Assembly (NCBI GenBank): GCA_022072405.1
Contig: JAJVHX010000007.1
Location: 1-64,000, forward strand
Reading direction: 5' to 3'
Source of the DNA: Phycisphaerae bacterium
GTDB taxonomy: Bacteria > Planctomycetota > Phycisphaerae > UBA1845 > CAIVHJ01
DNA: 64,000 bases
The translations under genes were made by a program, and so were the position numbers. Shown piece after piece: positions 16,067 through 30,858 of the stretch (positions within the stretch are counted from its first letter, which is position 1; each line of letters opens with the position of its first letter). The notes beneath the pieces are model-generated. The model did no database searches. It had not been told where the DNA came from and saw nothing but the letters and a program-made list of their open reading frames with translations.

Positions 16067-16108
16067 AAGGAGAGGGTAAAGGATTAGAGGATTTAAAGAT
16101 ATTGGAAT

Positions 16109-16257
16109 TGGTTTCATTTTTATTGGTCCGCCTGATAGAAACCCCGTGGTGTGCCAAGGCTCTGTGAGCCGTGCGGGATGGCGATCCTCCACCACGGCGG
16201 GTACAGCCGTGGCACACGCAATTCCCACACCACGGAACGATTAACTCGAATCCGCTC
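16109..16257 (-). repeat. Element B copy, longest (about 149 bp)
   Basis: On the minus strand it runs from AGCGGATTCG to ATGAAACC and matches the copy at 30.8 kb at both ends (cggaacgattaa; tattggtccgcctgat). The central hairpin ggctctGTGAGCC is present. An extra segment of about 40 bases around 16170-16220 contains another partial hairpin half. Confidence 0.75.
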
Positions 16258-16289
16258 TAGAACCCGTTTCATAATTGAATTAATGAGCA

Positions 16290-16325
16290 TCGCGCAGGCT
16301 AAAGCCTGCGGCTCTTTGATTTTTG
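16290..16325 (+). repeat. REP-A repeat, well preserved
   Basis: tCGCGCAGGCTaaAGCCTGCGGCTCTTTG with compensatory arms CAGGCT/AGCCTG. The right flank atttttgaaaccacttcc and left flank cgtttcataattgaatt are roughly complementary, giving an outer inverted repeat. Confidence 0.85.
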
Positions 16326-30710: not shown

Positions 30711-30858
30711 TCCGCGCGGGCTAAAGCGGATTCGTATTAATCGTTCCGTAGTGCAGGACTGCAATATCACACGGCTCACGGAGCCGTGGCACACCACGGG
30801 GTCTTTATCAGGCGGACCAATAACAATGAAACCGCTCTGAAGCCCGCGGCTTTTTGAA
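30711..30858 (+). repeat. REP-A repeat split in two by Element B
   Basis: The left half (tccGCGCGGGCTaaag, 30711-30726) and right half (ctgaAGCCCGCGGCTttttgaag, from 30836) together rebuild one palindromic repeat. Everything between them is Element B. The loop hexamer CTRAAG occurs on both sides, as a target-site duplication would leave. Confidence 0.8.
30726..30836 (+). mobile_element. Element B copy nested inside a REP-A repeat
   Basis: About 111 bp beginning gCGGATTCG and ending AAACCGCT, imperfect inverted termini, with the hairpin CACGGCTCacgGAGCCGTG in the middle. It encodes nothing. It matches the reverse complement of 16109-16257 along both ends. Non-coding, short, inverted termini and a possible target duplication together suggest a MITE-like element. 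Confidence 0.7.

Follow-up and report, generated by a model that had tools for sequence, protein, structure and literature searches.

One of the closest described counterparts of the repeat analyzed here is RUP of Streptococcus pneumoniae, a multicopy, intergenic element of ~107 bp with terminal inverted repeats, a TA target and IS630-resembling ends, which often lies within other mobile elements and for which mobilization by IS630-Spn1 has been proposed (excerpts of PMC2229807). The Correia/NEMIS elements of Neisseria, treated in the same excerpts, carry TA at their termini and come in size classes of ~107 and 155 bp that differ in an internal segment. A separate group of insertion sequences (IS621, ISPpu9, ISRm22 and others) targets a fixed point of REP palindromes, with ISRm22 inserting at the REP axis of symmetry; the families named are IS3, IS110, IS4, IS256 and IS5, and the words IS630 and MITE do not occur in the available part of PMC1525189. 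REPs themselves are high-copy palindromes that flank Y1 transposase (RAYT) genes in REPtrons, and they have been found inside ORFs, tRNA synthetases among them (excerpts of PMC3733652).

The window (the whole stretch of 64,000 nucleotides analyzed, from a Phycisphaerae bacterium) holds a REP palindrome, REP-A, that is split by another repeat, Element B. We consider it very probable that Element B is a MITE (nonautonomous DNA transposon) of the IS630/Tc1-mariner type, inserted at TA into the loop of an older REP-A. Element B resembles RUP in each of the features of sequence and location listed above but differs in that the IS630 elements whose ends are similar come from other genomes of the order alone, and in that its core carries REP-B hairpins and some of its copies lie in a REP loop (PMC2229807, in part). 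With Correia/NEMIS it shares the terminal TA and two size classes, here 114 and 152–154 bp; the likeness is one of description, end sequences aside, and neither a REP core nor a REP-loop target is described for Correia/NEMIS in the available text (PMC2229807). Like the REP-targeting insertion sequences (PMC1525189, in part), it occupies a constant position within a REP palindrome, but differs in doing so in only 2–3 of 20 copies. TA-targeting MITEs are thus already known (RUP and Correia, in the excerpts of PMC2229807), and Element B adds a member. REP-A in turn resembles the REPs of REPtrons as a high-copy palindrome flanking Y1 transposase genes, whereas here the transposase domain itself lies in frame within a synthetase, unlike REPtrons as described in the available part of PMC3733652. 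Among open-licence papers, we found no report of an IS630-type MITE in REP loops, nor of a RAYT or REP transposase domain in frame within essential or host enzymes.

Table 1. Features of the split REP-A locus, with comparison copies from the window and the REP-A-flanked Y1 domains of the same genome.
Feature	Position	Strand	Remark
Left arm of split REP-A palindrome (GCGCGGGC)	30714..30721	+	joined-flank score 22/23
TA target, left copy	30722..30723	.	
Element B, short form of 114 bp that lacks the first internal palindrome	30724..30837	+	
Terminal inverted repeat at end 1, differing from GAGCGGATTCGTGTTAATCGTTCCG by 2 mismatches	30724..30748	+	
Core palindrome REP-B (CACGGCTCACGGAGCCGTGGCACACCAC)	30770..30797	+	hairpin at tip in predicted fold
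Terminal inverted repeat at end 2, differing from GAGCGGTTTCATTTTTATGGGTCCG by 2 mismatches	30813..30837	-	
Target, right copy, TA decayed to TG	30838..30839	.	
Right half of split REP-A (AAGCCCGCGGCTT)	30840..30852	+	
Second Element B copy of the window, 152-bp long form	16106..16257	-	TA kept at 16258-16259, other flank decayed
Intact REP-A, loop CTAAAG, close to the 16106-16257 copy, for comparison	16292..16314	+	
LeuRS with REP-A-flanked Y1 domain in frame	L071:1349-4813 (own genome, C17)	-	
ValRS with REP-A-flanked Y1 domain in frame	L072:948-5213 (own genome, C3)	-	

The halves of the split palindrome (30714–30852) are separated by ~111–114 bp. When Element B is removed and one TA is kept, the site would read GCGCGGGCTAAAGCCCGCGG, and the joined flanks depart from the REP-A pattern at a single position (22 of 23 match). 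REP-A is a host repeat with 220 matches within 3 mismatches in its own genome (3.57 Mb in 28 contigs, 93.7% complete), compared with 1 for the reversed control. As background, a score of at least 20 was obtained at 2 of the 2121 TA sites of the window, both of them exact matches, and a score of at least 17 at 7, true REP-A copies included. Joined flanks also restore REP-A at 23/23 positions for L016 (C2:233.7 kb) and at 17/23 for L003 (C11:70.6 kb), whereas the remaining 17 copies of Element B score 10–14 of 23. Because the joined flanks restore REP-A, this palindrome came first and Element B moved into it in the past. REP-A is certainly the older repeat at two places (the window copy, L001, and L016) and probably also at L003, which is decayed and less certain. 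Both the nesting and the order of events given in the preliminary description are therefore borne out, as is its match of the insert to the reverse complement of 16109–16257 (88 nt at 85% identity, to ~16110–16257, with element ends at 16106 and 16257). Its claim of direct evidence that Element B moves holds for past movement but not beyond it, given that this copy differs by 13% from its nearest relative and that one TA has already become TG.

The ends of Element B (GAGCGGATTCG/GAGCGGTTTCA) define a family. A genome-wide search with two 25-base end patterns, allowing up to 3 mismatches, matched 16 sites for one end and 9 sites for the other, with 0 for the reversed patterns used as controls, which is more than chance would give. 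The family comprises ~20 copies with 25-bp imperfect terminal inverted repeats (GAGCGG...CCGCTC), and those that have both ends and are uninterrupted measure 88–154 bp, which is too short to hold a transposase gene. TA lies directly outside the ends on at least one side in 20/20 copies and on both sides in 10 (L002, L003, L004, L007, L008, L016, L017, L036, L052 and L058; with a manual 1-base correction of the ends of L036 and L017 for small indels). In five others (L001, L005, L006, L035 and L065) one flank keeps its TA and the dinucleotide at the opposite flank has changed, four (L039, L073, L074 and L076) have a single recognizable end, and L075 has TG on one side and an outer TA that was read by eye beyond a second inserted element. 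GAG and CTC stay constant with Element B at unrelated sites while the bases outside TA vary, and the target duplication is a 2-bp TA. The letters adjoining this TA read CTAR/YTAG in 13 of the 15 uninterrupted copies with both ends (exceptions L002 and L065), compared with 119 of 2123 TAs in the window, and therefore CTAR is the preferred target.

This family bears on the explanations that compete with a TA-inserted MITE. In the preliminary description the element ran CGGATTCG...AAACCGCT and the loop hexamer CTRAAG was its target duplication. CTAAAG and CTGAAG do stand on the two sides of the window copy, and CTAAAG stands on both sides of L003, but the corresponding hexamers are unlike elsewhere (TTAGAG/CTAATT at L002 and CTAGAG/CTAGCG at L004), where GAG...CTC is constant and TA alone is duplicated. 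At the window copy, the left CTAAAG (30721–30726) consists of C, TA and the AAG of Element B, and the right CTGAAG (30837–30842) of the C of Element B, TG and the AAG of REP-A. The element that runs AAGCGG...CCGCTC (30724–30837) is accordingly bounded by a duplication of 2 bp rather than 6 (TA at 30722–30723 and TG at 30838–30839). Alignment of the 20 copies, which had been proposed for defining these features, yielded the shared ends and the TA duplication and not the earlier termini. We regard the CTRAAG version, already refuted by the Element B copies outside REP-A, as extremely improbable.

It is equally hard to credit that the split palindrome reflects an assembly join, or recombination between two REP-A copies, with no insertion at all. 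The assembly is in 28 contigs and ~220 REP-A copies could recombine, yet L016, elsewhere in the genome, is built in the same way, keeps both TAs and gives a joined REP-A of 23/23, and the ends and TA are common to 20 copies of Element B. Slightly less remote, but still very unlikely, is a mosaic origin of Element B from REP hairpins, with spread by a Y1 (RAYT) transposase rather than by a DDE enzyme. Other families of the order do have the core REP-B palindromes with no Element B ends around them, and three Y1_Tnp genes but no DDE_3 were found in the genome. However, a TA duplication with long terminal inverted repeats is unlike Y1 transposition, which is not known to duplicate any sequence, and the Element B ends are absent (within 6 mismatches) from all three Y1 loci.

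A MITE moved by an IS630-type enzyme is therefore the reading that we prefer. IS630/Tc1-mariner elements have TA targets. A transposase that recognizes the ends of Element B (88–154 bp, with 25-bp terminal inverted repeats starting GAGCGG) would excise it and integrate it at C-TA-R. An older REP-A offers such a target in its loop (GGGC-TA-AAGCCC), which Element B would have entered here and at one or two other places; one TA would later decay to TG. Mobilization in trans by an IS630-family transposase, since lost or absent from the assembly, appears the most likely route, and both the transposase family and a lack of current activity are inferred. No DDE_3 (IS630) transposase gene was found in the genome, whose assembly may lack it, being 93.7% complete and in 28 contigs; DDE_3 is present in 69 of the 114 genomes of the order. 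Among 30 IS630 (DDE_3) loci retrieved from the order, 12 have TAGAGC at what is, by position, the element end, and six of the 30 (L098, L102, L103, L106, L107 and L113) have it at both ends, 1027–1059 bp apart. One of these, L098, reads TAGAGCGGTTTCA and equals the second end of Element B over 13 bases. Beyond TAGAGCGG, the ends of Element B (TCCG) are unlike the IS630 elements found, most of which read GTAGC further in.

Other searches of related genomes returned parts and cousins. The relatives compared included no second genome of the genus, and none of them showed an unsplit REP-A at the corresponding place. Matches to the 111-bp query within the order were 21–31-bp pieces of the REP-B palindrome alone. 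A 112-bp element of a genome of the same family (L086 in G001) has TAGAGCGG at both ends; it was rejected as Element B itself and is a different element, a cousin. Scans of other genomes' contigs, which may not include this genome, gave no match to the exact Element B end pattern and no relative of the protein neighboring the split REP-A. We take this protein to be sugar-kinase/nucleotidyltransferase-like.

Whether REP-A attracts Element B beyond its TA depends on the comparison. The REP-A loop CTAAAG happens to fit the CTAR target. Three of 20 copies lie in REP-A, and the probability of at least three is 6e-5 to 8e-4 relative to noncoding TA sites, and 0.02–0.18 relative to noncoding CTAR sites, varying with the number of TA-holding REP-A loops. 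Note that the amount of noncoding sequence is an approximation, obtained by covering the window greedily with ORFs and scaling to the genome. A preference for REP-A beyond CTAR was not significant among the 20 copies, and CTAR preference may explain the 2–3 found there. What emerges is a family of bacterial repeats whose ends are clear, whose target is TA and whose order of nesting is dated.

In folding predictions, the window copy of Element B reaches −40.3 kcal/mol compared with −29.1 for shuffles (z −3.5; better than 200/200 shuffles), and a long copy reaches −76.2 kcal/mol (z −5.5). When the flanks are included, the REP-A arms are predicted still to pair around the element, and therefore the hairpin would have been lengthened by the insertion and not destroyed. 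The locus is thus modeled as three stacked hairpins, with the REP-A stem outermost, the Element B stem in the middle and REP-B at the tip, which suggests that pairing of a REP stem can survive the insertion of an IS630-type MITE into its loop. The window gave tRNA alone at the Rfam gathering score, and the Element B locus gave nothing up to E 1, and therefore it corresponds to no known RNA family.

Long copies (152–154 bp) carry REP-B as an inverted pair of palindromes. A shared 38-bp deletion reduces the window copy and L002, which occupy different TA sites, to 114 bp. This shared length and deletion indicate that the short form itself probably moved, and the 87% identity between these two copies indicates that the insertion event is old. 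Three copies (the window copy at 30724, L003 and L052) start with AAG in place of GAG, and two of the three lie in REP-A loops; the REP-A loop may have converted them, or they may form a sub-lineage.

The REP-B palindrome free of Element B ends, seen in other families of the order, forms an inverted pair at some loci. Two of these (L029 and L034, in genome G057 of another family) are REPIN-like, and such pairs suggest that Element B captured a REP pair. The window's own genome also has small elements that are flanked by TA, differ at their ends (GAGCGGATTAAG.../GCGCGATTTAAC...) and have the same REP-B core (L011, L012, L020, L021 and L023), and therefore several MITE families share this core. 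A second small element with GGTACTGGTAWMGTTT ends occurs in the window at 2173–2261, on C8 at ~54.2 kb (the left flank of L002) and on C11 at ~145.3 kb (L057/L075), where it is inserted within a copy of Element B. It has an 8-bp duplication, CATTATTC at C8 and GTTTCATT at C11, of which ~6/8 positions are kept in the window.

The Y1 loci yielded a by-product of the Element B question that may matter more than the nesting, namely transposases within enzymes. Two of the three Y1_Tnp genes of the genome have REP-A on both sides, in inverted orientation, and these two lie within long open frames (Table 1). The leucyl-tRNA synthetase with the Y1 insert is 1154 aa long, scores 1027 bits against TIGR00396 in three pieces (profile 1–140, 142–269 and 273–842), and is the only one over the TIGR00396 cut-off in the genome; the valyl-tRNA synthetase is 1421 aa long. 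The third RAYT is free-standing (L069, C14:49237–49464; NF047646 over cut-off), with neither REP-A nor REP-B close to it within 6 mismatches.

We lean, by a small margin, toward a reading in which REP-A is spread by a Y1 (RAYT) transposase that has an intact catalytic His-x-His and Tyr and resides in frame within essential enzymes (the only LeuRS and a ValRS here, with relatives in PurH, AlaRS and ValRS). With the REP ends translated as linkers, the host enzyme would still be produced and would carry the transposase as one more domain, intein-like but without splicing. The scattered REP-A loops would offer CTAR sites at which IS630-type MITEs could land. If true, this arrangement would account for the maintenance and expression of a REP-spreading transposase that has no promoter of its own.

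A search of the order with the LeuRS insert gave matches in 53 of 114 genomes. The 31 Y1 domains examined are the 30 best-scoring loci, which are biased to the LeuRS query, and the ValRS domain of this genome. A host enzyme was recognized by Pfam in the same frame for 21 of them: PurH (7), AlaRS (7), ValRS (3), LeuRS (1), another class I synthetase (1), MmeI (1) and MutS (1), with the Y1 domain on the N side of MutS domain I in the last case. L126 and L131 were called ValRS from their sequence, the Pfam match being to a class I synthetase domain. No host domain was found in two longer frames, and eight of the 31 are short frames of 157–234 aa. The insertion point is the same in 7/7 PurH, 3/3 ValRS and 5/7 AlaRS hosts, the AlaRS exceptions being L137, which differs, and L143, which is cut off at a contig end. 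In the alignment, His-x-His is kept in 30 of the 31 domains and Tyr in 29. Many of the inserts are adjoined by the linkers EPRASARA and ARAEARGS, which are REP-A read in frame. In a tree of 29 Y1 domains (L133 and L149 left out), the AlaRS group, together with L135, stands apart from the PurH/LeuRS/ValRS group with good support, and six of the seven PurH inserts fall together with moderate support.
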